Shown here: piece after piece, positions 460-32,213 of the stretch
Position numbering within the stretch: position 1 is the stretch's first letter
Layout: every line of letters begins with the position of its first letter
Source of the DNA: a virus
Virus record (IMG/VR): IMGVR_UViG_3300042555_000343
Coordinates: 1 to 35,307 of that record
Reading direction: 5' to 3' (one strand)
Length of the DNA stretch: 35,307 bases
Position numbers and translations under genes: made by a program
Notes under the pieces: generated by a model
Databases searched by the model: none
What the model was told of the DNA's origin: nothing
Seen by the model: only the letters and a program-made list of their open reading frames with translations

Positions 460-655
460 TATTGATCCAAGAGAGTTTGGCAAACTAGAAGCCCAAGTTG
501 AGGCTTTACAGGCAGAAGTTCATGCCATGCGTGAAGACATTAAAACTCTGTTAGAGATGGCTAACAAGTCTAAGGGCGGTATGTTTGTTGGGATGGCTAT
601 TGCATCTGTTGTTGGTGGCATTATTTCGTTTATTGCGACTAAGGTAATACGATGA
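452..655 (+). CDS. Coiled-coil protein with C-terminal membrane segment (holin-like / XhlA-like)
   Basis: A 67-residue protein. Residues 8-40 form a strongly heptad-like coiled coil (LEAQVEALQAEVHAM), and residues 43-64 form one Gly/Ala/Ile-rich membrane helix followed by a short basic end. This layout resembles XhlA/hemolysin-type small phage membrane proteins and some holin partners. It lies about 11 kb from the lysis cassette, among capsid-associated genes, so a structural or DNA-entry role is equally possible. Its stop overlaps the next start by ATGA. Confidence 0.75.
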   Translation: MSDIDPREFGKLEAQVEALQAEVHAMREDIKTLLEMANKSKGGMFVGMAIASVVGGIISFIATKVIR

Positions 656-1056
656 GCTTACTATCTGGTGTTATTTGTCCTATAGCCACTCAAGACATTC
701 AGATAAATCTGAAGAACCGCAATAATGCGTTCAAGAAGTTTGGCTATGGCCCACCTAACCCAGAAGAACCCAATGAGCTGTTTTGGCTAAAGAAAGCCAA
801 GATGTATAACGCACCTACTGAAAGCATTAAATCAATGCTCTGCGGTAATTGTGCGGCCTTTATCCAGACTCCTAAGATGATGGAATGCATCATTGGTGGA
901 CTAGAGAAAGATGAAGGCGAAGATGAGTTGTCTTATGACGAAGAGTTCATCAAAGCCGCTGATCTCGGCTATTGTGACTTGTTTCAGTTCACTTGTGCTT
1001 CCGCTCGCACTTGTGATGCGTGGAAAGGTGGCGGCCCTATAACCAAGGAAAAATGA
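652..1056 (+). CDS. Cysteine-rich phage protein, HiPIP-like
   Basis: A 134-residue protein with cysteines at about positions 9, 64, 67, 79, 108, 115 and 121. The spacing CGNCAAF (64-70), GYCDLF (106-111) and CDAW (121-124) follows the CxxCxxF...GxCxxF...CxxW order of high-potential iron-sulfur proteins, which hold one [4Fe-4S] cluster. There is no signal peptide or membrane helix. The acidic segment at 85-100 is probably a loop. It lies in an ATGA-coupled row of micro-proteins behind the capsid genes. The cluster-binding idea is a motif match only; a structural zinc site is the main alternative. Confidence 0.78.
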   Translation: MSLLSGVICPIATQDIQINLKNRNNAFKKFGYGPPNPEEPNELFWLKKAKMYNAPTESIKSMLCGNCAAFIQTPKMMECIIGGLEKDEGEDELSYDEEFIKAADLGYCDLFQFTCASARTCDAWKGGGPITKEK

Positions 1057-6315: not shown

Positions 6316-7581
6316 ATGGCAGAAATCGTCCAATCCTTATTCGGGATTACTCCCGATATGTATCAGCAAAGCCAACAGGCTAGAGCTGATCAACAAGCAC
6401 TTCAATATGCACAATTAACACCTTTCCAACAGGCTAACTTTGCCATTGGTCGTGGCGCTAATATGCTTGGTGGCGCTATTGGTGGTGCATTGGGTGGTCA
6501 AGACCCACAATTGGCGCTGATTAGTGCTAGACAACAGATTTCAGGTCAGATTAACTATGCTGATCCTGAGTCTATTGCCAAGGGTGTAGATATGTTATCT
6601 CGTGCTGGTGATACGCAAGGTGCAATGATGCTTTCCGATGTGTATCGTAAGGCTGAGAGTGAACGAGCATTGACTGCACAAAGAACAGCTCAAGCAGGTC
6701 GTGAACGTCAACAAGCAATTCCTAATGACATTTTGATTGCCAATGAAATTGCGACTTTGACAGATGCTCAAGATCAATTGTTGAATCAACCTGCATCACC
6801 AGAGCGTGATCGTGCAATAAATTTGTTAACGACTCGTTTGACTCAACTTGAGCGTTTGACAACTAAAGAAAAGACTCAGCCAAAAACAAGTTATGGCCCT
6901 GAAGCTGATAGAGCAGCTTTTGCAAGATTTGGTAAAAACTTTAGCGATTTAACACAAACAGAAGCCGCTGTAATAGATACTTTGCTAGAAGAACGTGGTG
7001 TTAAAAAAGCTAAAGAAGGCGCTCCTAAATTGACCAATGTAATGCCTGGTCAAAAAGAGTTTGCTGACATACCAAAATTTAGAGCAGATGTGCAGAAGAC
7101 CATTGCTCCTCAAATCCAATCTGTTACTGCGGCAGATCAAGCATTGCAAGCCATTAACGATTCAATTACAAAAAACAACTTTGTCTCATTTAATGCGGCT
7201 AGAGTTCAATTGGCGAAGGCTCTTGGAGACAGTCAACTCAGTAGGCGTGATGTTGAGCAAGCAGGTGGAGACCCGTCTTTGTTTGGCAGACTTTTGGATA
7301 GTACTTCAACATTGTTTACTGGTACTCCAACAGTGGAAACGCAGAATCTTATTAAGAACACTTTGACTGCAATTAAGAAGGTTTCTACAGATAAAGCCAA
7401 TAGAGAGATTGATGTGCAGAGAAACATTGCATATAACACACCTGGCTATGATCGCGCTCGTGTAGATGCGGCACTTACTTTCCCTGAGTTTGCTGTTCAA
7501 CCTGTAGGCGTTACAACTGATAAAAAACCAGTTACAAGAACTCTTAAAAGCGGTAAAGTTGTTACTGTAATTGAAGAATAA
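6316..7581 (+). CDS. Putative internal virion / DNA-ejection protein B
   Basis: A 421-residue, Gln/Ala-rich, largely helical protein. Residues 1-60 contain MAEIVQSLFGITPDMYQQSQ and a Gly-rich hydrophobic patch (GANMLGGAIGGALGG) like that of its upstream neighbour. The middle (100-190) is a charged helical region. The C-terminus is more globular. Two bases separate it from the previous stop. Size, composition and order fit the second member of a podoviral ejection-protein trio. No enzymatic motif is visible. Confidence 0.72.
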   Translation: MAEIVQSLFGITPDMYQQSQQARADQQALQYAQLTPFQQANFAIGRGANMLGGAIGGALGGQDPQLALISARQQISGQINYADPESIAKGVDMLSRAGDTQGAMMLSDVYRKAESERALTAQRTAQAGRERQQAIPNDILIANEIATLTDAQDQLLNQPASPERDRAINLLTTRLTQLERLTTKEKTQPKTSYGPEADRAAFARFGKNFSDLTQTEAAVIDTLLEERGVKKAKEGAPKLTNVMPGQKEFADIPKFRADVQKTIAPQIQSVTAADQALQAINDSITKNNFVSFNAARVQLAKALGDSQLSRRDVEQAGGDPSLFGRLLDSTSTLFTGTPTVETQNLIKNTLTAIKKVSTDKANREIDVQRNIAYNTPGYDRARVDAALTFPEFAVQPVGVTTDKKPVTRTLKSGKVVTVIEE

Positions 7582-7590
7582 GGATTCATC

Positions 7591-10236
7591 ATGGCAGTTT
7601 ATGAAATTGATGGAAAGAGGTATCAAACTGATACTCCTTTAACTGATGCCGAACTAGAAGAGTTATCTGGAAAGACAACTCCTTCTACTAGTGCTGTGAC
7701 TGCTGAAGCCGCACGAAGAGGTATTGCAACTACTGTTGGCACTGTTTCAGGTCTATCAAATGTCCTTTTTTCTGCTTTGGAAAGAGCAGGAGTTAACCCT
7801 TTAACTTTGGGCATGAGAGCTTCTGGTGGCACTGTTGCCCCAGCACCGACAACTGGTGGTGTTGTTGAGACATTTAGAACAGCTCGTGAACCTGTTTTGC
7901 AAGGGACTATGCAAGCCCTTGGGACTACTGGAGTGCAACCACAAACTGGTATGCAGAAGATTCTTGCTCAAGGAACAGAGGCTGTTACATCACCAGAAAG
8001 CTATCTATTCCCTGCATTGGCAGCCACTAGACGTATGGGTATGTTTGGTCAAAGCATATTCCGTCCTGCTGAACAACAGGTAATTGGCTCTGCCGCTGAA
8101 GCTGGTGGCATGGCAGGTGAGTATGCTGGCGAGAAATTAGGCTCTGCTACCACTGGTAGAGTGGTTGGTAGTATTGCAGGTGGTGCAGGTGGTGCTTATG
8201 GCTTGGGAACTACCCTTAAAACAGTACCTTTAGCTGGCAAAGGCTTTGATGTTGCTAAAGCTCAATGGGACAAGGTTCGTGGAACTGTTCCTGAAGATGA
8301 ATTGCTAAAAGATGTAGACAACCGCATCAGCAATATCTTTATTGCCGCAGGTGCTGCCGATCCTACTGTTTTGGATACCATCACTAAAGCCGCTAAAGCA
8401 CAGCAAAGTCTTTCTTTGAAGACTCCTGGCGGTACACCAGTACAGATGCCAATTAGCTCTCTGTTGGCAGACAATCCTGTTGTCAATCAATTGATTCAAA
8501 GCCTTTCTGCTAAAGACCCTGTATTCAGAGCGCAGTATGGCAATCAATTTGAGCAAGCTAAACAGGCTCTAAATGCTAGTCAGATTCGTTTGTTTGGAGA
8601 CCCATCAAAGGTAAGTGTTAATGTTTCTCCGCTTAATTTGGCTAAACCACAAGCCCGTAGAACTCGCACTATTGATGAACAGATTGCAGATACTTTTAAG
8701 GATGCAACTCTTGATCCCAATACTTTTGGTCAACGGGTTTCTGCGCTTGTTGCCGCCAAAGAAGATGCTGCTTATAAGACTGTCAAACCTCTTTATACAG
8801 AAGCCTTTGATATTGCCAAGCAAAAGAATGTTGAATTACCTGCCAACTCTGTTGATGACATATATAACTTTGTTGCTGGTGAGCAAGCATCTGACATCTT
8901 TAAGACATTCCCGTCTATCTACAATCGTGTTCGTGCAAAATTCCGTCCTACAGAAGTAGAGCCTAGCCCTATTCTTACCGCAGAAGGTCGTCCAATGACC
9001 GAGGGTGGAATTAAGTTTACTGCCGCTACAGTAGAGGATTTGGACTCGTTAAAGCGTGAAATCAACAAACAATTGCGTAAAACGAGCGAACCCGCTGATA
9101 TTCGATTGCTCTCCGAGTTAAAAGCTCGTGTTGGTGGTCATATCGATAGCCTAGACCCTGACTTTGTTTCGGCTTATCGCAATGCTGATGCTTCTTACTT
9201 CCAAAAGGTTGGTTTGCCATTCAATTCTGAGACTTTAAGGTCTGTTGATCGAAAGAAGTTTGTTGAACAAATTGTTCCTGCAATCATTGGTAATAAGTCC
9301 AATGTTGATGACTTTATCAGGGCTACTGGTGAAGATGGTGTTCGTGTGGCAAGGGATGCGTTCTACGATAGTTTTAGTCGTGCCGCACTCAAGAATGACG
9401 TTATAGACCCTAAAGCGGCCAACAAGTGGCTTACAAAGAACCAAGGTGGTATCTCTTTAGTGCCAGGCTTGGAGGATGAACTCCGTACTGCATCAAATAA
9501 TGTAACGGCTCTTATTGCTGAACGAAATCGCTTAGATGCCGCATTTAAGAAGGCTGCTGGAGATCAAATTGTGAGTTCTGGTGGTTTCAGTAGTCCACAA
9601 GATTTAGTCTCCAAGATGTATGGTGATGTGAACTTTACCAACAAGTTTATGAAGCAGTATGGAGCGAATAAGGATGCAGTGAATGCGGCTCGTTCCTTCA
9701 TGTTGGATGACATTGTTCGTTCTGGTGATCCAATTGGAATGCTGAATGACAGGACAAAAGCCGCTGTGTTTAACAGAGTGTTTGGGCCAACTTATGCTCA
9801 GAAGATTCAAGACTTTGCTTTAGTATCTGACAGGCTCAATAAAGACCTAACAAATGTGCCTTTCAAGGTTGAAACAGTACCTAAGACACCTTTTGAGAGC
9901 GTTGTTGGTATCCCTCCAGAACAAGTTATTTCTAGATTCACCAATCCTGTTTCTGGTAATTTCTACGCTATCAGTTCACTTATGAGTAAGTTCTGGGCAA
10001 ATAAGGCATCGGCTTTGACAGAAGAGAAGTTAAAGGCTTTGCTGTTAAACCCAACTGATGCTGTAAAAGTATTCTCAGCACTCCAACAAAAGAATGGTAC
10101 TTTTGACCAAAGTAAAATTCAAGAAGCCATCCGTGTTGGTAAAAAGTTTGGCATTGATTGGGGTCGTGATGCGATTCAAGATATTACAACTGGTGCTGCT
10201 CGTGGTGGTGTTGAATCAATGACCGAAGAGCAATGA
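7591..10236 (+). CDS. Large internal virion / DNA-ejection protein C
   Basis: An 881-residue protein, the second largest here. It opens with MAVYEIDGKRYQTDTPLTDA, a short DNA-circulation-like N-terminal motif. Residues 50-215 hold Gly/Ala-rich, membrane-active-looking helices (GSIAGGAGGAYGLG). From about 230 it is a long alternation of amphipathic helices. I found no clear lytic transglycosylase motif. Position and composition suit the largest ejection protein (P22 gp16 / T7 gp16 functional class). The gene overlaps a tiny membrane-protein gene by ATGA. Confidence 0.75.
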   Translation: MAVYEIDGKRYQTDTPLTDAELEELSGKTTPSTSAVTAEAARRGIATTVGTVSGLSNVLFSALERAGVNPLTLGMRASGGTVAPAPTTGGVVETFRTAREPVLQGTMQALGTTGVQPQTGMQKILAQGTEAVTSPESYLFPALAATRRMGMFGQSIFRPAEQQVIGSAAEAGGMAGEYAGEKLGSATTGRVVGSIAGGAGGAYGLGTTLKTVPLAGKGFDVAKAQWDKVRGTVPEDELLKDVDNRISNIFIAAGAADPTVLDTITKAAKAQQSLSLKTPGGTPVQMPISSLLADNPVVNQLIQSLSAKDPVFRAQYGNQFEQAKQALNASQIRLFGDPSKVSVNVSPLNLAKPQARRTRTIDEQIADTFKDATLDPNTFGQRVSALVAAKEDAAYKTVKPLYTEAFDIAKQKNVELPANSVDDIYNFVAGEQASDIFKTFPSIYNRVRAKFRPTEVEPSPILTAEGRPMTEGGIKFTAATVEDLDSLKREINKQLRKTSEPADIRLLSELKARVGGHIDSLDPDFVSAYRNADASYFQKVGLPFNSETLRSVDRKKFVEQIVPAIIGNKSNVDDFIRATGEDGVRVARDAFYDSFSRAALKNDVIDPKAANKWLTKNQGGISLVPGLEDELRTASNNVTALIAERNRLDAAFKKAAGDQIVSSGGFSSPQDLVSKMYGDVNFTNKFMKQYGANKDAVNAARSFMLDDIVRSGDPIGMLNDRTKAAVFNRVFGPTYAQKIQDFALVSDRLNKDLTNVPFKVETVPKTPFESVVGIPPEQVISRFTNPVSGNFYAISSLMSKFWANKASALTEEKLKALLLNPTDAVKVFSALQQKNGTFDQSKIQEAIRVGKKFGIDWGRDAIQDITTGAARGGVESMTEEQ

Positions 10237-18182: not shown

Positions 18183-18395
18183 ATGGCATACAGCCGAAAA
18201 AACATATCCAATGAGGGCGACAGAGTTGTTCTTGAGAAAGCCGAAGCAAGGGAGATATTCCGAACTTGGCAAACAAACAGAGATAACGATTTTGTTCGTG
18301 CCAGGCTTGAGCGTTGCGAAAGAATCTATGGAACTGGAGCAAGAGATCGGGTCAGGTTTTATATGCGTCAAATGAAAGAAGGACAAATTGAATGA
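18183..18395 (+). CDS. Small Arg-rich phage protein (70 aa)
   Basis: A 70-residue protein, MAYSRKNISNEGDRVVLEKA and onward, with EAREIFRTWQTNRDNDFVRA and ERCERIYGTGARDRVRFYM. I recall similar small proteins in many phages; the family may be DUF7696, but I am not certain. It is highly charged and helical. It overlaps the start of the methyltransferase gene by eight bases. Function unknown. Confidence 0.72.
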   Translation: MAYSRKNISNEGDRVVLEKAEAREIFRTWQTNRDNDFVRARLERCERIYGTGARDRVRFYMRQMKEGQIE

Positions 18396-19209
18396 GTTGG
18401 CATTATTTGCGGGAGCTGGAGGGGGAATCCTTGGAGGACATTTGCTCGGATGGAGAACTGTTGCAGCCGTTGAAATCGAAGATTACCCACGCAGAGTTTT
18501 ACTGCAACGGCAAGCTGATGGACTCTTACCTAGATTCCCTATCTGGGACGACATTAAAACATTCGATGGGAAGCCTTGGGCAGGAAAAGTCGATGTCATC
18601 TCAGGTGGATTTCCCTGTCAGGACATTTCTGCCGCAGGAAAGGGTGATGGACTCGATGGGGAACGAAGCGGAATGTGGAAAGAAATGGCACGGGTGGTTG
18701 GCGAAGTACGATCACAGTACGTCTTTGTGGAAAACTCCCCAATGCTCACTACTAGAGGAGGAGTTAGAGTCATTGGAGACCTTACCCAAATGGGGTATGA
18801 CTGTAAATGGACTGTTATGGGAGCAGCCGATGTTAATGCCCCACACCAGAGAGACAGAATGTGGATTGTCGGCAAATTGGCCAACACCAGTTCACAGCGA
18901 GGCCAGGCAGGGTCTACAGATTCGCAGGGAGGGCAAGAAAGGCACTCAAACGAGTCTCAGCACAGCGGTTCTAACTTGGCCTACACCTCGGACAAAGGGG
19001 ATGTGTGGCGGGAGTGGGAGTTGGGATTTGTTGAACAAAAACACAACAATCGAAGAGGCTCGGCTAATGGGAGCAGGAAATGGTGGTCAACTGAACCCAA
19101 CGTGGGTCGAGTGGCTCATGGGGTGGCCTCTAGGGTGGACAGACTTAAAGCCATTGGCAATGGACAAGTCCCATTGTGTGCAGCAACAGCATGGAGAATC
19201 CTGAAATGA
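18388..19209 (+). CDS. DNA cytosine-5 methyltransferase
   Basis: A 273-residue C5-methyltransferase. FAGAGGGILGGHLLGW (7-22) is the SAM-binding motif I. GGFPCQDIS (73-81) holds catalytic Cys77. FVENSP (113-118) is motif VI (ENV, here ENS). HQRDR (153-157) is motif VIII, and KAIGNGQVP (254-262) is motif X. The target-recognition region is short and low in complexity (about 168-235). It starts at TTG, four bases after AAGGA. It probably protects phage DNA from host restriction. No cognate nuclease is next to it. A second open frame (18392-19204) covers almost the whole gene in the +1 frame. Confidence 0.93.
   Translation: MNELALFAGAGGGILGGHLLGWRTVAAVEIEDYPRRVLLQRQADGLLPRFPIWDDIKTFDGKPWAGKVDVISGGFPCQDISAAGKGDGLDGERSGMWKEMARVVGEVRSQYVFVENSPMLTTRGGVRVIGDLTQMGYDCKWTVMGAADVNAPHQRDRMWIVGKLANTSSQRGQAGSTDSQGGQERHSNESQHSGSNLAYTSDKGDVWREWELGFVEQKHNNRRGSANGSRKWWSTEPNVGRVAHGVASRVDRLKAIGNGQVPLCAATAWRILK
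18392..19204 (+). CDS. Overlapping +1-frame protein inside the methyltransferase gene
   Basis: A 270-residue open frame, MSWHYLRELEGESLEDICSD and onward, lying +1 to the methyltransferase along its full length. It has its own ATG eight bases after AAGGA, a better spacing than the methyltransferase TTG. It contains SLWKTPQCSLLEEELESLET, two WPTP blocks (near residues 167 and 199) and a closing NPTWVEWLMGWPLGWTDLKP. I remember protein entries in other phages with the same order of blocks. A 270-codon chance frame is improbable (about 2 in a million for random even-composition sequence). Whether it is translated, or is only an echo of conserved methyltransferase codons, cannot be decided here. 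Confidence 0.5.
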   Translation: MSWHYLRELEGESLEDICSDGELLQPLKSKITHAEFYCNGKLMDSYLDSLSGTTLKHSMGSLGQEKSMSSQVDFPVRTFLPQERVMDSMGNEAECGKKWHGWLAKYDHSTSLWKTPQCSLLEEELESLETLPKWGMTVNGLLWEQPMLMPHTRETECGLSANWPTPVHSEARQGLQIRREGKKGTQTSLSTAVLTWPTPRTKGMCGGSGSWDLLNKNTTIEEARLMGAGNGGQLNPTWVEWLMGWPLGWTDLKPLAMDKSHCVQQQHGES

Positions 19210-23771: not shown

Positions 23772-24031
23772 GGAATAGTAAGAGGGAATCAATAGGGAAT
23801 GTATAGGGTAAGACAATGACAAACAATAATTCAAGTACCCTAAAAATGGTGCATCAAACCCTCTTTCAACTTTATGCAAAAAACGCATAACCTTTGCACT
23901 AAGGGTAAACCCTGATGTATGGATAGACAGTAGTAGAAACCCTAGTGTTATGTATGGGGGGGGAGGGGTAGAGTGGTGTGTGTAGATATTGGTGTAGCCC
24001 CCTACCCTCAAAAAAAGCTAAAAGGAGAAAC
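23772..24031. other. Gene-poor region upstream of terminase
   Basis: These 260 bp contain no convincing gene. They hold operator copy 4, several TAGGG/CCCTA-type motifs, a run of eight G (23955-23962), a GTGTGTG stretch, and the AAGGAG ribosome site of the small terminase gene. Being directly upstream of terminase, the region is a candidate for the packaging initiation site (pac/cos) and for the late promoter. Frames on the - strand here are Pro/Ser-rich and lack ribosome sites. Confidence 0.5.
23902..23913. promoter_or_regulatory. Operator-like palindrome, copy 4
   Basis: AGGGTAAACCCT, the exact reverse complement of copy 3, about 120 bp before the small terminase gene. It may control the late or packaging operon. 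Confidence 0.58.
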
Positions 24032-24397
24032 ATGGAACAACTAAAGCGAGGAAGAGGAAGACCTAAAGGAAGCGTCAAGATGACCATACAGAGGTTTGCT
24101 GATAACCCTCCTATGGTGTTACCTAAGACTGACCATCAGAGGCTCAAGGAGCTTAAAGAGTTGATGATCAGGAGTGGAGGTAAGGATGTTGCTCAGAAGG
24201 TAATAGAGATAGCTTTAAATGACGAGCATCCCCATCAATTGGTGGCTTTGAAGATGTGTCTTGATAGGACTCTACCTGTGAGTATGTTTGAGAAGGATAA
24301 GAGTCAGAGGAGTGCTGTGACCATCAATATCACTGGATTAGGTGAAGAGCCGACCATCATTGAACAACCTGAAGATGTAGAGGCAAAGTATGGCTGA
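24032..24397 (+). CDS. terS: Putative small terminase subunit
   Basis: A 121-residue protein. It opens MEQLKRGRGRPKGSVKMTIQ, an AT-hook-like basic segment, then a helical core (HQRLKELKELMIRSGGKDVA) and an acidic end (EEPTIIEQPEDVEAKYG). ATG 24032 has AAGGAG upstream; an earlier ATG at 23978 is unlikely. The place directly before, and overlapping, the large terminase by eight bases is the usual one for the DNA-recognition subunit. Assignment is mainly positional. Confidence 0.72.
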   Translation: MEQLKRGRGRPKGSVKMTIQRFADNPPMVLPKTDHQRLKELKELMIRSGGKDVAQKVIEIALNDEHPHQLVALKMCLDRTLPVSMFEKDKSQRSAVTINITGLGEEPTIIEQPEDVEAKYG

Positions 24398-25649
24398 TTT
24401 GAATTTCTCTCTCTTACCTTGGCAACAACAGGTCTTTGCTGATAAAACAAGGTTCAAGGTTGTGGCTGCTGGGCGTAGGTGTGGTAAGTCTCGTATGGCG
24501 GCTGTTACCTTACTGATAGAGGGACTGAAGTGTCCTCAGGGGTCTGCTGTGCTGTATGTGAGTCCTACTATGGGGCAGTCAAGACAGATTATCTGGGACT
24601 TGCTGTTAGACCTTGGTAGAGAGGTTATACAGAGTAGCCATGTAAATAACTTGGACATTACTCTGATAAACGGAGCAAGGATTTATGTTCGTGGTGCTGA
24701 TAGACCTGATACGCTTCGTGGTGTGTCTTTAACCTATGCTGTACTAGACGAGGTAGCGGATATTAAACCAGAGGCTTGGGAACAAGTTATTAGGGCTTCT
24801 TTGTCTGACAAGCGAGGTAGAGCCTTGTTCATTGGGACACCCAAGGGACGTAACTGGTTCTATGATACCTTTAAGCTAGGAGAGAGTGAGGATGATCCTG
24901 ATTGGAAGTCATGGCACTTCACCACTGCTGATAACCCTTTGATTGACCAAAAAGAGATTGAATCTGCCAAGAAGACCCTGAGTACCTTTGCTTTTAAACA
25001 AGAGTACATGGCGAGCTTTACGAATGCGGGGAGCGATATCTTTAAGGAAGAGTGGATCAAATATGGGGAAGAGCCTCAATATGGTTCTTACTTCGTAGCG
25101 GTGGACTTAGCGGGATTTGAGGAAGTTGCCAAACAAGCGGCTAATTCCAAGAAAAGGTTAGATGAGACTGCTATCTCGGTGGTGAAGGTTACTGACGATG
25201 GTAAGTGGTTTGTCGAGAAGATTGAGCATGGTAGATGGGATATTCGGGAGACTGCGGCTAAGATTCTCTTGGCGATAAGGGATTACAGACCTTTAAGTGT
25301 TGGGATCGAGAGGGGGGCTTTAAAGAACGCTGTTTTGCCCTATTTGAGCGACCTTATGAGAAAGAACAACACCTATGCCCATATCGTGGATTTGACTCAT
25401 GGGAACAGAAAAAAGGCTGATAGGATCATTTGGGCATTGCAAGGAAGGTTTGAGCATGGCAGAATTGTGTTAAATTCTGAGGGAGATTGGGATGAGTTTG
25501 TTGACCAGTTAATCCTGTTCCCTGCTCAAGGAGTCCATGACGACCTACCTGACTCTCTTAGTTACATTGATCAACTCGCTGTTACATCCTACATGGAAGA
25601 GGATAACAGTGATGATTGGCAACCTATAGATATTATTTCAGGAGTCTAG
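24390..25649 (+). CDS. terL: Large terminase subunit (packaging ATPase/nuclease)
   Basis: A 419-residue protein. The ATPase half has the Walker A variant AAGRRCGKSR (26-35, Lys33), Walker B YAVLDE (116-121, Asp120/Glu121) and the coupling motif IGTPKG (148-153). The RNase H-like nuclease half has FVAVDLAG (Asp239), GIERGA (Glu307) and HDDLPDSL (Asp384/385/388). It is a complete, somewhat compact terminase that pumps DNA into the prohead through the portal. A one-base gap follows it before the protease gene. Confidence 0.95.
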   Translation: MADLNFSLLPWQQQVFADKTRFKVVAAGRRCGKSRMAAVTLLIEGLKCPQGSAVLYVSPTMGQSRQIIWDLLLDLGREVIQSSHVNNLDITLINGARIYVRGADRPDTLRGVSLTYAVLDEVADIKPEAWEQVIRASLSDKRGRALFIGTPKGRNWFYDTFKLGESEDDPDWKSWHFTTADNPLIDQKEIESAKKTLSTFAFKQEYMASFTNAGSDIFKEEWIKYGEEPQYGSYFVAVDLAGFEEVAKQAANSKKRLDETAISVVKVTDDGKWFVEKIEHGRWDIRETAAKILLAIRDYRPLSVGIERGALKNAVLPYLSDLMRKNNTYAHIVDLTHGNRKKADRIIWALQGRFEHGRIVLNSEGDWDEFVDQLILFPAQGVHDDLPDSLSYIDQLAVTSYMEEDNSDDWQPIDIISGV

Positions 25650-25650
25650 G

Positions 25651-26385
25651 ATGGCAGATGGATTATTCAATGCCTCTCGTCTATATGAGGTTCTAAAGCA
25701 ATATGGACTACTTCCTAAACACGCCAATTATTCTCCAGCAGGTGAAGCATCAGGTTTGTTTTCTCCTGAACTAAATAGAATGGTTGCTCCAGATGCTGCA
25801 TTGGTTAGAGACCCATATGCTAGAGATTCTACGATGGCAACTTTTGCCCATGAGATGACTCATGCAGTTCAGAACAATTTGCTTGAAAATACTGCATATC
25901 AAATTCAAAAGAAAAAACAACAAGGCGGTAAACTTACTGACCAAGAGGCTCAATATTTAAGAGCCGCAGAGCAACTCTTTGCTAGACAATATGGAAATGT
26001 AGGAAGTTTTAATAAATCTAAGTATAGAGCTGATACTCAGTCTTATAAGAATATGGTTAAGGATATGTACTCTTCCCCAACAGGGAACAAAGACTTTGAG
26101 TCATACAGGAAATCTGTGGATGAAGCTCAAGCATTTGGTGTTGGGAATATGTCTTATCCATCAAATTTAAGACGTTCTGGACAAAATCCTCACTTTGATC
26201 CATCTATGGCACAAGAGTTTGACATCTTATTATCGATGTATCAAAATCTACCAGAGTCTTTGAAGAATTCTGCTGCTATATCAAAACAAACTCAAATCGA
26301 AAAAAATCGACAAACTTCAAAGGATTTTTATCTTGAATCCGCAAAAGATATGTTCAAGAATCCTTTTGAGCCAACCATAAAATAG
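25651..26385 (+). CDS. Putative zinc metalloprotease (zincin, HEMTH)
   Basis: A 244-residue protein. ATFAHEMTHAVQNN (63-76) is an HExxH zinc site with His67, Glu68 and His71. DEAQAFG, with Glu158, is a plausible third ligand in the gluzincin manner. The rest is helical, with Lys/Gln-rich segments. It has no signal peptide or membrane segment. It lies between terminase and portal, both in the same direction, so it is probably made late and may be virion-associated. Processing of head proteins or of a host target are possible roles; I know no characterised phage relative at this position. Confidence 0.78.
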   Translation: MADGLFNASRLYEVLKQYGLLPKHANYSPAGEASGLFSPELNRMVAPDAALVRDPYARDSTMATFAHEMTHAVQNNLLENTAYQIQKKKQQGGKLTDQEAQYLRAAEQLFARQYGNVGSFNKSKYRADTQSYKNMVKDMYSSPTGNKDFESYRKSVDEAQAFGVGNMSYPSNLRRSGQNPHFDPSMAQEFDILLSMYQNLPESLKNSAAISKQTQIEKNRQTSKDFYLESAKDMFKNPFEPTIK

Positions 26386-26397
26386 AAGGTAATCACT

Positions 26398-28434
26398 ATG
26401 GCAAGCGATGAACAATTGACTCAAAACGAGTTTTACCAGCCAACAGAGAACGATAAAGAGTTAACTCGATTCGTTATTGACCACTGTGATCGCTGGAGAG
26501 ACTATCGCAACACCAATTTCCTTGATAGTTACCTTGAATACGAGCGTATTTTCCGTGGAGAGTGGGCAGCAGAGGATAAAACTAGGGATTCTGAACGTTC
26601 TAGAATCGTTACTCCCGCTACCCAACAAGCAGTAGAGACTCGTCATGCCGAGATTATGGAAGCAATCTTTGGTCAAGGTGAGTACTTTGACATTGAAGAT
26701 GACCTGAAAGACATAGATGGCAATCCATTAGACGTTGAAGTTCTTAAAGCTCAACTGATGGAAGACTTCAAACAAGACAAAATCCGTAAATCTATCGACC
26801 AAATTGAGTTGATGGCAGAAATCTACGGCACTGGCATCGGTGAGATCGTTGTTAAAACAGAGAAAATCTTTGAACCTGCGACTCAGGCGATTCCTGGTCA
26901 ATCAATGCAAGCCGCTATCGGTGTTGTAGAAAAGAATCGTATTGCAGTCAAGATTGTTCCTGTCAATCCTAAGAACTTCCTGTTCGACCCCAATGGAACA
27001 AGCGTAGACGACTGTATGGGTGTTGCCATTGAGAAGTATGTTGGCATCCACAAGATCGTTGAAGGCATCGAAAAAGGCATCTATCGCAAGGTTGACATCA
27101 CAACAACCTATGAAGATACAGATTTAGAGCCTACTCAAGAGTTAAGCCAGTATCGTGATGAAAAAGTGTTACTTTTGACATACTATGGCTTAGTTCCTAG
27201 AGAATATCTGACAAACAAAGATGATGAAGTTGCTGTGTTGTTTCCTGATGACTCAGTAGCAGAAGATTACACAGACATGGTTGAGGCAATTGTGGTGATT
27301 GCTAATGATGGGATGCTTCTCAAAGCAGAAGAAAACCCATACATGATGAAAGACCGCCCTGTCATTTCCTATCAAGACGATACAGTTCCTAATCGACTAT
27401 TAGGTAGAGGTACTGTAGAGAAATCCTACAATATGCAGAAGGCTATTGATGCTCAAGTTCGTAGCCATTTGGATTCTTTAGCATTGACTACCTCTCCTAT
27501 GATGGGTATGGATGCTTCTCGCCTACCAAGAGGTGCTAAGTTTGAGGTAAAGCCAGGCAAAGCCTTCATGGTCAATGGTAATCCCTCTGAGATTCTCTAT
27601 CCATTCAAGTTTGGTGAGACAAGTCTGAACAACCTGAATACTGCCAAAGAGTTTGAGCGTATGCTCCTTCAGGCTACTGGTACTTTAGACTCTCAAGGTA
27701 TGGTTTCTCAGGGTAATCGTGATGGCGCTGGCATGAGCATGGCAGTTGCTACGATTATCAAGAAATACAAGCGTACCTTAGTTAACTTCCAAGAAGACTT
27801 CTTGATTCCGTTTATTCAGAAGGCAGCATTCCGCTATATGCAGTTTGACCCTGAGAGATATCCTAGTGTGGACATGAGGTTTATTCCTACTGCTACGCTT
27901 GGTATTATTGCTCGTGAGTACGAACAACAACAGTTCATTGGTTTATTGCAGACTCTTGGCCCGAATACACCTGTTCTGCCGTTAATATTGAAGGGCATCT
28001 TAAACAACTCTAGTTTGACTAACAGATTTGAGTTGATGAGTGCTTTGGATCAGATGAGTCAACCTGACCCACAAGCCCAAGAGATGCAACAAGTTCAACA
28101 ACAGTTGGCTCTTCAAGCGGCACAGGCTCAGATTGCTGTCAATACGACACAAGCAGAGCAGAATCGTGCAGAGGCGGCTAAGTTAATGACTGAGGCTCAA
28201 TTGATGCCACAAGAAGTACAGGCTAAAGTGATTGCTTCTACTACGAAGAATCTTCCACAAGGGAATGAGTCTAATGAGTTTGATAAACGAGTGAGAATTG
28301 CTGAGTTGATGCTCAAAGAAGCTGATATAAAGAACAAGAGTAAAATCGTTGAACTTCAAATGGCTGACAAACAAAAGAATTTACAGCAAATTGAAAACGA
28401 CTTTCTTGACCAATTATCTGGAGCTTTGAAATGA
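26398..28434 (+). CDS. Portal protein, P22-like
   Basis: A 678-residue portal. The N-terminal part has a Trp/Arg-rich helix (CDRWRDYRNTNFLDSYLEYE), then SERSRIVTPATQQAVETRHA, typical of P22-type portals. The wing and stem regions follow, including VPNRLLGRGTVEKSYNMQKA and a tunnel-loop-like stretch near 430-455. From about 545 to the end it is long, Gln/Ala-rich helices, matching the extended barrel of podoviral portals. It forms the dodecameric ring for packaging and for adaptor docking. The next gene overlaps by ATGA. Confidence 0.92.
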   Translation: MASDEQLTQNEFYQPTENDKELTRFVIDHCDRWRDYRNTNFLDSYLEYERIFRGEWAAEDKTRDSERSRIVTPATQQAVETRHAEIMEAIFGQGEYFDIEDDLKDIDGNPLDVEVLKAQLMEDFKQDKIRKSIDQIELMAEIYGTGIGEIVVKTEKIFEPATQAIPGQSMQAAIGVVEKNRIAVKIVPVNPKNFLFDPNGTSVDDCMGVAIEKYVGIHKIVEGIEKGIYRKVDITTTYEDTDLEPTQELSQYRDEKVLLLTYYGLVPREYLTNKDDEVAVLFPDDSVAEDYTDMVEAIVVIANDGMLLKAEENPYMMKDRPVISYQDDTVPNRLLGRGTVEKSYNMQKAIDAQVRSHLDSLALTTSPMMGMDASRLPRGAKFEVKPGKAFMVNGNPSEILYPFKFGETSLNNLNTAKEFERMLLQATGTLDSQGMVSQGNRDGAGMSMAVATIIKKYKRTLVNFQEDFLIPFIQKAAFRYMQFDPERYPSVDMRFIPTATLGIIAREYEQQQFIGLLQTLGPNTPVLPLILKGILNNSSLTNRFELMSALDQMSQPDPQAQEMQQVQQQLALQAAQAQIAVNTTQAEQNRAEAAKLMTEAQLMPQEVQAKVIASTTKNLPQGNESNEFDKRVRIAELMLKEADIKNKSKIVELQMADKQKNLQQIENDFLDQLSGALK

Positions 28435-31400
28435 TTAACATTGATGCACTGAATGACGAAGAAAAACTGGCAGCTCTGGAGTCAATTCACAAGTCCATTG
28501 CAGAAAGCAAAGAGATTCAGCGAAAGAAGATTACTACAAATGTAGAAATGATTGTTAAGGCTCTCAAGAAGATTGAGGCTGACCTTAAACAAAGATATGA
28601 CGAGACAGGACAGTTAATTGCCAACTTAAAGAGTGGTGAAGATGGTCGTGATGGTAAGGATGGCAAAGACGGAAAGAATGGTAAAGATGGTAGAGATGGC
28701 CCAATGGGGCCGAGAGGCTACGATGGAGTGCCTGGTCGCAATGGTCTAGACGGAACAGATGGTGTATCCGTTACTGATGCTCACATCGACTTTGATGGCA
28801 GTCTGATCATCTCTCTATCTTCTGGTCGAGTAATCAATGTTGGTGAAGTAGTAGCGGCAGATATTGCCGAGAAGATCAAAGTGATCACCAATGGTGGTGG
28901 AACAAGTCAGAGTGTATTAGATGCTATTGCTTCTTTACAGGCTCAGATAGATGCAATTGCCAGTGGTTTGGAATATCAAGGCACATGGAATGCTTCCACC
29001 AATGTACCGACATTAGCCTCTAGTGTTGGCACTGCTGGTTACTACTACATTGTTGCAACCGCAGGTTCTACTAATTTGAATGGTATTACTGATTGGCAAA
29101 TAGGCGATTGGGCGGTATTCAACGGGACTATTTGGCAGAAGATTGACCAAAGTAACTTGGTGACTTCTGTTGCGGGTCGTACTGGTGCTATTGTTTTAAC
29201 GACTGCTGATATTGGTGGTTTGGGTACGATTGCAACCCAAGCGGCAAACAACGTAACTATCACTGGTGGCAGTATCACTGGCATAACTGATTTGGCTATT
29301 GCTGATGGTGGTACGGGTGCATCTACTGCTAATGCGGCATTCAATGCTTTAGCGCCTAGCCAAACGGGTAATAGCGGTAAGTACCTAACAACTGATGGTA
29401 CAGATACATCTTGGGCAACAAACCCATTGGGTACGGTAACTAGCGTTAGCGGTACAGGAACTGTTAACGGGTTAACTTTAACTGGAACAGTCACAAGTTC
29501 AGGCAGTTTGACACTTGGTGGGACATTGAGTGGCATCGCAAATTCTGCTCTGACTAATTCCTCAATTACGATCAATGGTTCAGCAACCAGTTTGGGTGGC
29601 TCAATCAATGTTGGCACAGTAACAAGTGTTGGGGCTACTGTTCCTTCGTTCTTGTCTATTGGTGGATCACCCGTAACAAGCAGTGGTACTTTAGCTATCA
29701 CTCTGTCAGGAACTGCATTACCTACTACTTCTGGCGGTACAGGTTTAACATCCTTTACTGCTAATGGCGTGGTTTATGCTTCATCTACGAGTGCATTGGC
29801 TACTGGTTCAGCATTGACATACGATGGAAGCAAACTTGTTAACACTGGCTATAACAAAAGCACTTATCAAGTTTCAACTGATGCAGTCAGTACATTTGAA
29901 TCAGTAGGTGGTGGATATTTAACCTACGATGGTGCTGGTGGTGCAAGTGTTTACTCTAGATCAAATGCTACTACAGAAAATGCTTTAACTTTTCGAGCTT
30001 CTGGCTTTTCGTTCCGCATTGGTGGGACTCAGGTTGCTTCTCTAGGCTCATCAAACTTTAGTTTATACAACAGTCAACTTTTATTTAATGGTGCAACCTC
30101 TGGTTATACGGGGTTTGCTGCTCCAGCAGTATCAAACTTTACTGTTTATACCCTCCCATCTTCTGATGGAACAAATGGTCAATCCTTGACAACAAATGGT
30201 AGCGGTACTTTGTCATGGGTAAGTGGCACAGGTGGTACTGTTACTTCTGTAGGCGGTACAGGAACAGTTAGTGGCTTAACCCTGACAGGAACAGTAACAT
30301 CCTCTGGCAACTTAACTTTGGGTGGTGCGCTTGATTTATCTGCCTATAACGGGGCAGGTGCTTTTACTACTTTGAGTGCTTCTAGCACAGTAACCCTCTC
30401 TGGAGGTACTGCTAACGGAGTAGCGTATTTAAACGGCTCTAAGGTTGTTACAAGCGGTTCTGCGCTTACTTTTGATGGCTCAAGTTTGTCAAATACACGA
30501 GCGTCTGGGACTTTTGCTACTGGCTCTTTTATTACAAGTATTGGTAGCGTATCGGGCGTTTTTTCTGGTGATTCATCTCTTGGCGTAGTTTCAATTGGAA
30601 GCTACTCAAATCACCCTGTCGCTTTTTATCAAAACAACTCAGAAGCCATGCGCCTAACCAGCACAGGTCTGGGTATTGGTACAAGTAGTCCTGTTGGAAA
30701 GTTACAGGTATCTGGCGCTAACGATTCTAGAGTAGCACTAATTAATGGAGCGACAAAAGGCGTTCGTTTTAATATCGGTTCTTCTGGATCATCCATTGAA
30801 GGGGTTGACAATACTGGTACTGGGTCATTTCAGCCACTAACAGTTGGCGGATCAACTATAGCCTTTTCTATTTCTGGTAGTGATAAGGCACTTCTCGACT
30901 CCTCAGGCAATCTAGGCTTGGGAGTTACTCCTAGTGCTTGGGGAAGTATTTTTGCTGGTGGTGTATTTCAAGCAAAAAACGCATCGGTAATGGGATACTT
31001 AAATGCGGTTTATTTAGGTGCGAACTATTACGCAACAAATTCTTCTGATAATTACATTGCAACAGGATTTGCATCACGTTATCAACAAACAAGCGGTCAG
31101 CATCAATGGCTTATCGCCCCATCAGGCACAGCAGGAAACGCCATTACCTTTACTCAGGCAATGACTCTGGATGCTAGCGGTAACTTGGGTATTGGTACAA
31201 CCTCTCCTAATCGCACTTTGGATGTGCGCGGCTTTATAAGTGCTTCTGATGGAACAACTAGAACAGAAATTGTGAACGGTAGCGGTGTTGGTTATTTTGG
31301 TACGGCAACCAATCACCCGCTTGCTTTCCAAACAAACAACACAGAACGTGCCCGTATAGACTCAAGCGGTAACTTGCTGGTGGGGGCTACTGCACCATAT

Positions 31401-32213
31401 ACAGCGGCGTTTACTGGCATCTCTGTTCAAGGCTTAACAAGTGGAACAGGTAATTTGTCTTTGGGTCTTAACAAGTCAGGAACTCCTCAAATTTTGAGTG
31501 GTGATGTTCTTGGCAACATCTATTTTTATGGTGTTGATAATGACATAACTGCTGGCAACAATAATATTGGCGCAAGAATTGCATCAATTGCAACGACAGA
31601 TTGGACAACAGACGGCACAACGTCAAATGCCGCACTTGTTTTTTATACACATGGAACTACGTCTGGCGCACCAGAAGAACGTGCCCGTATAACATCAGGC
31701 GGTGACTTGCTGGTGGGGACTACTACTTTTGCAAGCGGTCAAAATGGTGTTTTACTCAGAGGTACTAGCGGTGGTGCAACTGATGAAGTTCTACAAGTTA
31801 GAACGTCTGGCACAGGGAGTAAATTTAATACAGCTTTTTACAACGATAACGGGCGTGTTGGTTCAATCGATACAAACGGTTCATCTACCTCCTTCTCTAC
31901 TTCTTCAGACTACCGCTTAAAGCATGACATCGCCCCAATGACAGGCGCATTGGCAAAGGTAGCATTGCTTAAACCTTGCACTTACAAATGGAATGTTAAT
32001 GGCTCTGATGGCGAAGGCTTCATTGCTCACGAGTTGGCTAAAGTTGTGCCTCAATGCGTAACTGGTGAAAAAGATGCTATTGACGCTGATGGAAAACCAA
32101 AGTACCAAGGCATTGATGTATCTTTCTTGGTAGCCACACTCACAGCCGCCATCCAAGAACAACAAGCAATCATTGAATCACTCAAGGCACGTTTAGATGC
32201 CGCTAATCTTTAA
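28431..32213 (+). CDS. Large tail fibre with collagen-like region and S74 chaperone
   Basis: A 1260-residue fibre. Residues 1-68 form a coiled coil that may anchor it. Residues 69-111 are collagen-like Gly-x-y repeats (GEDGRDGKDGKDGKNGKDGR). A globular module with TSVAGRTGAIVLTTADIGGL follows, then long beta-repeats (GTVTSV...GTVxGLTLTGTVTSSGxLTLGG). The last 105 residues are a peptidase S74 intramolecular chaperone: SDYRLKHD, with Ser1159 and Lys1164 as the self-cleavage dyad, and a closing helix. It should trimerise and cut off its own chaperone. It is unusually placed between portal and scaffold. Confidence 0.93.
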   Translation: MINIDALNDEEKLAALESIHKSIAESKEIQRKKITTNVEMIVKALKKIEADLKQRYDETGQLIANLKSGEDGRDGKDGKDGKNGKDGRDGPMGPRGYDGVPGRNGLDGTDGVSVTDAHIDFDGSLIISLSSGRVINVGEVVAADIAEKIKVITNGGGTSQSVLDAIASLQAQIDAIASGLEYQGTWNASTNVPTLASSVGTAGYYYIVATAGSTNLNGITDWQIGDWAVFNGTIWQKIDQSNLVTSVAGRTGAIVLTTADIGGLGTIATQAANNVTITGGSITGITDLAIADGGTGASTANAAFNALAPSQTGNSGKYLTTDGTDTSWATNPLGTVTSVSGTGTVNGLTLTGTVTSSGSLTLGGTLSGIANSALTNSSITINGSATSLGGSINVGTVTSVGATVPSFLSIGGSPVTSSGTLAITLSGTALPTTSGGTGLTSFTANGVVYASSTSALATGSALTYDGSKLVNTGYNKSTYQVSTDAVSTFESVGGGYLTYDGAGGASVYSRSNATTENALTFRASGFSFRIGGTQVASLGSSNFSLYNSQLLFNGATSGYTGFAAPAVSNFTVYTLPSSDGTNGQSLTTNGSGTLSWVSGTGGTVTSVGGTGTVSGLTLTGTVTSSGNLTLGGALDLSAYNGAGAFTTLSASSTVTLSGGTANGVAYLNGSKVVTSGSALTFDGSSLSNTRASGTFATGSFITSIGSVSGVFSGDSSLGVVSIGSYSNHPVAFYQNNSEAMRLTSTGLGIGTSSPVGKLQVSGANDSRVALINGATKGVRFNIGSSGSSIEGVDNTGTGSFQPLTVGGSTIAFSISGSDKALLDSSGNLGLGVTPSAWGSIFAGGVFQAKNASVMGYLNAVYLGANYYATNSSDNYIATGFASRYQQTSGQHQWLIAPSGTAGNAITFTQAMTLDASGNLGIGTTSPNRTLDVRGFISASDGTTRTEIVNGSGVGYFGTATNHPLAFQTNNTERARIDSSGNLLVGATAPYTAAFTGISVQGLTSGTGNLSLGLNKSGTPQILSGDVLGNIYFYGVDNDITAGNNNIGARIASIATTDWTTDGTTSNAALVFYTHGTTSGAPEERARITSGGDLLVGTTTFASGQNGVLLRGTSGGATDEVLQVRTSGTGSKFNTAFYNDNGRVGSIDTNGSSTSFSTSSDYRLKHDIAPMTGALAKVALLKPCTYKWNVNGSDGEGFIAHELAKVVPQCVTGEKDAIDADGKPKYQGIDVSFLVATLTAAIQEQQAIIESLKARLDAANL

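Follow-up and report, generated by a model that had tools for sequence, protein, structure and literature searches.

A predicted zinc metallopeptidase in a high-turnover slot between the terminase and portal genes of uncultured podovirus-like phages, and a C-terminal motif that may load it into the virion

The stretch of DNA analysed here (the window) is the 35,307-base IMG/VR virus record IMGVR_UViG_3300042555_000343, from a freshwater-type phage whose group consists of uncultured, podovirus-like phages. Between the genes for the terminase large subunit (TerL) and the portal protein lies an open reading frame (ORF) encoding a protein of 244 amino acids (aa) with a HEMTH motif, which a first-pass annotation of the sequence had assigned to the zincin-type metalloproteases. 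The residues of its predicted zinc site are conserved and under purifying selection, the junction that houses the gene changes its content frequently, and the protein ends in a motif that it has in common with proteins of unrelated core sequence from the same slot in related phages. We put at roughly 0.55 the probability that the protein is an interchangeable gluzincin cargo that would be loaded into the phage head by this C-terminal motif, injected, and set to cleave a host protein. The features concerned are the following.

25651..26385, plus strand: zincin cargo protein, 244 aa, ATG start; the ORF between TerL and portal
24390..25649, plus strand: TerL, upstream border of the slot (phrog_2, E 1e-47)
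26398..28434, plus strand: portal protein, downstream border of the slot (SU10_portal PF23899, E 6.6e-13; phrog_1216, E 6e-38)
25849..25863, plus strand: HEMTH, residues 67-71; His67 and His71 predicted zinc ligands, Glu68 predicted general base
26104..26124, plus strand: Y152-R153 and Glu158 (EAQAFG); Glu158 (codon at 26122-26124) predicted third zinc ligand, where helix 156-167 begins
26191..26202, plus strand: H181-F-D183-P184, second conserved motif HxDP[ST][MIL]; H181 and P184 invariant, D183 nearly so
26263..26382, plus strand: C-terminal extension, about 40 residues long, of the window clade; core-only zincin relatives end before it
26353..26382, plus strand: FKNPFEPTIK, proposed virion-loading tag; the same motif ends eight other slot cargo families

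The zincin ORF starts 1 nt after the TerL stop and is separated from the portal gene by 12 nt.

Zinc-site residues and predicted fold

The gene product is likely a gluzincin-type zinc metallopeptidase of the polyvalent-protein/lethal-factor-like kind, its zinc binding and activity being predicted from conserved residues and a structural model. Three search rounds of viral contigs, together with the TerL survey described below, yielded 34 usable homologues with 20-88% identity, and in their alignment L15, P22, G35, H67, E68, H71, Y152, R153, E158, A161, H181, P184 and L193 were invariant. The first-pass annotation had placed the ORF, HEMTH and Glu158 at these positions and had taken Glu158 as a possible third ligand; the coordinates and the alignment bear this out, as all 34 homologues retain H67, E68, H71 and E158, the last of which falls on a predicted helix and is the likely third ligand. 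Since these residues are invariant down to about 20% identity and the ratio of nonsynonymous to synonymous substitution is low (pairwise dN/dS 0.06-0.22 in the window clade, indicating purifying selection), the HEMTH/Glu158 combination is not a chance occurrence. The same invariance bears on whether the protein might be a catalytically inactive zincin fold that has a structural or adaptor role at the portal vertex. Structural proteins can keep enzyme folds, the gene adjoins that of the portal, and activity within the family is only predicted; with every predicted catalytic or ligand residue invariant in the 34 members under purifying selection, however, such a role is very improbable.

At the family level, the 244-aa protein had no Pfam match above cut-off, whether to the curated models of polyvalent-protein metallopeptidases (MPTases) or to any other family (DUF6055, M13 and eCIS_core appeared below threshold only), and no significant PHROG match. 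Zero homologues were detected among 50,697 records of isolate phages, and likewise zero among prokaryotic candidates drawn from 84,980 genomes. A related HEIQH zincin, without the tag, was seen directly upstream of the terminase genes in MW202710.1.

An AlphaFold2 (AF2) model built from the 34 sequences reached a predicted local distance difference test score (pLDDT) of 89.4 and a predicted template modelling score (pTM) of 0.89, while an earlier model from 12 sequences had a pLDDT of 71 overall and was poor around E158. The order of elements in the AF2 model (helix 9-17; strands 23-25, 36-38 and 43-45; HEXXH helix 55-90, in which the HEMTH block has a pLDDT of 94-97; Glu158 helix 156-167) agrees with the core fold published for the MPTases of polyvalent proteins (PMC5512222), and a zincin fold is accordingly what the model predicts. 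In VIA-align, rows 1-14 were all anthrax lethal factor, the best being the catalytic domain in 4dv8 (Z 6.3, 130 residues, root-mean-square deviation 3.9, 18% identity), and these were followed by M13, IrrE, M1 and ACE zincins plus a few unrelated helical proteins (best of these Z 4.2). The MPTase of the phage N4 virion RNA polymerase has likewise been unified with 4dv8 (PMC5512222). A structure search of BFVD returned two environmental phage proteins (E 1.9e-6 and 0.019). Two results count against the assignment: a Z of 6.3 is middling and, by the tool's own notes, inconclusive alone, and Foldseek gave no significant match in the PDB with either the 12- or the 34-sequence model. The zincin call is persuasive because fold order, invariant residues and a zincin-dominated alignment list agree; the fold expected by the first-pass annotation was thus recovered, with a zincin layout in the AF2 model and gluzincins as the top aligned structures.

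Frequent turnover in the cargo slot between TerL and portal

Relatives were sampled by TerL alone, blind to downstream content, and the close ones are all metagenomic fragments; both borders of the junction were visible in 154 contigs (relatives are cited by L numbers). The portal gene began directly after TerL in 84 of the 154, and many of these empty junctions had a TerL 95% identical and a portal similarity of about 77%, the same range as occupied junctions. The latter held one or several ORFs, and the slot ORFs examined fell into about two dozen unrelated families, a count that rests on BLAST separating the cores, with deeper relations between some of them possible. A TerL tree of 180 contigs requires no fewer than 80 changes in what the slot contains and, for the zincin family, a minimum of 14; the tree includes loci found via the zincin or the tag, whose share is therefore overstated. 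No pertinent literature on the junction as a cargo slot was found in a coverage that lacks most subscription journals, so the tag may have been noticed before.

As so many junctions are empty despite near-identical TerL sequences, the zincin is not a required head protease. A role in capsid maturation was rejected, the slot being empty or holding other genes in most near relatives. The first-pass annotation had offered two functions, action on the host after packaging and processing of the portal, fibre or scaffold; a processing protease needed by the phage is contradicted by slots that are empty or filled with a non-protease in most phages with near-identical TerL, and of the two functions, action on the host after packaging fares better, although it stays conditional here. 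Processing might still be optional, with the zincin trimming the portal, fibre, scaffold or an ejection protein in those phages that carry it. The gene does sit within the head-gene block, other phage lineages also have members of this family beside the portal (L222, L225, L210 and L214; after the portal in L228), and P1 DdrB is among the polyvalent-protein MPTases for which autoprocessing has been proposed (PMC5512222). Optional processing is nonetheless improbable, as most phages at 85-96% TerL and about 77% portal identity have no protease or a non-protease in the slot, and standalone zincins have no fused partner to release.

Other occupants of the slot included HNH endonucleases named from sequence motifs (L058, L065, L068, L087 and others), a GNAT protein (L012), zincins of a different type accompanied by LPD23 (L069, L102 and L109; HELSH or HELQH), ADP-ribosyltransferase (ART)-like proteins, and several families of unknown kind. 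Among the ART-like proteins, the one in L084 matched ART-PolyVal with an E of 1.9e-6, just under the curated cut-off, whereas the weaker cases comprised a weak match in L030 and an assignment by eye only in L061. Over 285 residues, the L102 zincin matched, at 31% identity, part of a gene of 11.4 kb annotated as 'structural protein' in Pseudomonas phage Epa33 and related phages. The domains LPD23, MPTase and ART are characteristic of polyvalent proteins, which are large and multidomain and for which packaging and injection have been proposed (PMC5512222). The window zincin is standalone and not part of a multi-effector polypeptide, but in L214, L217, L221 and L223 its relatives are fused; in L214 (8-4447), a 1,479-aa ORF directly upstream of the portal, with no PHROG match, contains an ART-like stretch and has the window-family zincin as its C-terminus. 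A second zincin clade of about 205 aa, ending in QNQQPASQGR, occupies the same slot in L019, L027, L059, L215 and L229-L240. Another common C-terminal tail, GDPNALRLSFAEWKKL, was observed in the slot on small proteins with differing N-termini (L025, L028, L039, L054, L122 and L146).

A common C-terminal motif on unrelated slot proteins

The motif [YF]x[DN]P[FLM]xx[ST][TIV][KR]-stop was found at the C-terminus of nine slot families (the window clade and eight others) without detectable core similarity, one of them chimeric, with a common N-terminus followed by an ART-like or a zincin domain. Its forms include YSDPFGDTTR, YKDPFGNTTR, YQDPFNDTTR, YADPFVDTTR, YKDPFPNTIK, YKDPLGFTIK, FKDPFKDTTR and FKNPFEPTIK. 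When all of IMG/VR was scanned at the DNA level for exact matches to DPFG[ND]TT[RS]-stop, 24 stretches were obtained; 23 of them close an ORF that lies immediately upstream of this portal, and the remaining one was a chance match. In the TerL-sampled contigs, the motif was present in 16 of 148 slot ORFs and in none of 5,471 other ORFs. When the whole records of 30 relatives were searched, tags occurred in only four, all in the slot by position, and in none of the records with an empty slot. Several slot families also have similar N-termini (MADGLF, MAEGLL, MATGLL), which may reflect a second signal or an upstream recombination edge. The common tail on unrelated cores suggests, from the sequences, a label for loading into the virion and delivery to the bacterium.

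Signal or scar

The motif might instead be a recombination scar or a translation-coupling element, with the zincin acting as an unpackaged intracellular moron protein, made late or early (e.g. in superinfection exclusion or host takeover). Several observations speak for this and weigh against a loading signal. Apart from the frequent turnover of the slot, the DNA of the tag hardly varies in the 95%-TerL group, and in the DTTR group the last tag codons, ACAAGGTAA, could be the Shine-Dalgarno site of the portal gene. The slot also houses untagged proteins, among them the 205-aa zincins, which lack both the 40-residue extension and the tag and thus show that the tag is not required for the slot. 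Moreover, recombination at the slot's 3' edge could have given the tags a common ancestry, the Fisher p of 2e-26 for slot enrichment derives from counts that ignore shared descent, and the phages of the group are uncultured.

On the other side, across diverged phages the residues are kept while the codons differ (GAT CCT CTA GGT TTT ACA ATC AAA versus GAC CCT TTC CCG AAT ACC ATT AAG versus AAT CCT TTT GAG CCA ACC ATA AAA). The tags in L107, L178 and L185 do not adjoin the portal but lie 457-1,376 nt from it, the L107 case being the first of two tandem cargoes that are both tagged. In the window, an AAGG ribosome-binding site is located downstream of the zincin stop, and a role of ACAAGGTAA in portal translation could account for the final residues of the DTTR group, but neither for DPF nor for the window. 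None of the nine slot HNH enzymes is tagged; HNH enzymes have their own means of spread. Taken with the points in its favour, we regard a scar or coupling element, and an unpackaged zincin, as rather unlikely.

A small Cys-containing family (window 652-1056, L023, L037, L123, L178, L194 and L196) may offer a natural experiment on the tag: outside the slot it ends in GGPITKEK (window, L023 and L037), while its in-slot copies have an added tail, a degenerate look-alike of the tag (VDDEPFSDSTKD, FDDPFKDSTS; D.PF.DST.D).

Proposed role and comparison with known systems

Under the cargo reading, the zincin would be made late, alongside the head proteins, and its terminal motif (with a free carboxyl end) would recruit it into the assembling head via the portal, scaffold or shell. 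It would then be ejected together with the DNA, and early in infection it would cleave a host protein, with zinc held by His67, His71 and Glu158 and with Glu68 as the base. Loading, ejection and substrate are proposed here because of the company that the gene keeps in the slot and the analogy with the internal proteins of phage T4. More generally, and at slightly less than even odds, the motif may be a dedicated C-terminal virion-loading peptide for the plug-in delivery of zincin, ART-like and unknown-fold effectors from the TerL-portal junction, analogous to the T4 signal and independent of it.

Polyvalent-protein MPTases (PMC5512222) resemble the window zincin in predicted fold order, in the HEXXH with a downstream Glu and in the context of phage structural genes; ART and LPD neighbours in its slot, and the multidomain ORF of the L214 branch, extend the likeness. 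In contrast to them, the window protein is short and standalone, has its own C-terminal tag and stays below the family thresholds. Its best structural alignment, the catalytic domain of anthrax lethal factor (peptidase M34), belongs to a different sequence family, and the window zincin is without the delivery domains of that toxin. Prohead maturation proteases of tailed phages are similar in having their gene within the head-gene block, but the zincin is of another catalytic type and is dispensable in near relatives.

T4 internal proteins are highly diverse, have only a capsid-targeting sequence in common, and are packaged and injected, some of them having anti-restriction activity (PMC3012670). 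They are comparable to the slot proteins as unrelated, variable cargoes joined by a short terminal sequence (nine core families here). In T4, the capsid-targeting sequence stands at the N-terminus and the prohead protease cleaves it off, whereas the strict motif described here stands at the C-terminus, belongs to phages that have a P22-type coat and an SU10-type portal, and would presumably serve packaging. Cargo-loading peptides of encapsulins are short and usually C-terminal, and load unrelated enzymes into an HK97-fold shell (PMC10960027, PMC8346489); no sequence relation to the phage motif is claimed.

Other features of the window and its relatives

23978..24397, plus strand: putative small terminase subunit, from position and conservation in relatives; no significant family match in the family search of the window proteins
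18388-19209: C-5 cytosine methylase (PF00145, E 9e-31)

The methylase gene is fully overlapped by a 270-aa open frame on the same strand (18392-19204). Between the portal and the scaffold, the window encodes a fibre of 1,260 aa that has collagen repeats and a Peptidase_S74 chaperone domain (28431-32213), whereas this interval measures only about 450-640 nt in most relatives; the head block thus has a second site that varies. In L076, an extra frame of 290 aa (7276-8148) separates two parts of TerL and ends in a normal TerL C-terminus; it looks like an intein or another insertion.

Implications

If the motif is a loading tag, injected effectors of environmental phages, most of them functionally obscure, could be listed from sequence alone, and a testable handle would be available on how small phages select the proteins that enter the head. 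It would also lend itself to use as a tag that directs chosen proteins to the inside of capsids. Whether or not packaging occurs, the slot makes the TerL-portal junction a store of effector-like genes that change fast inside the late operon.
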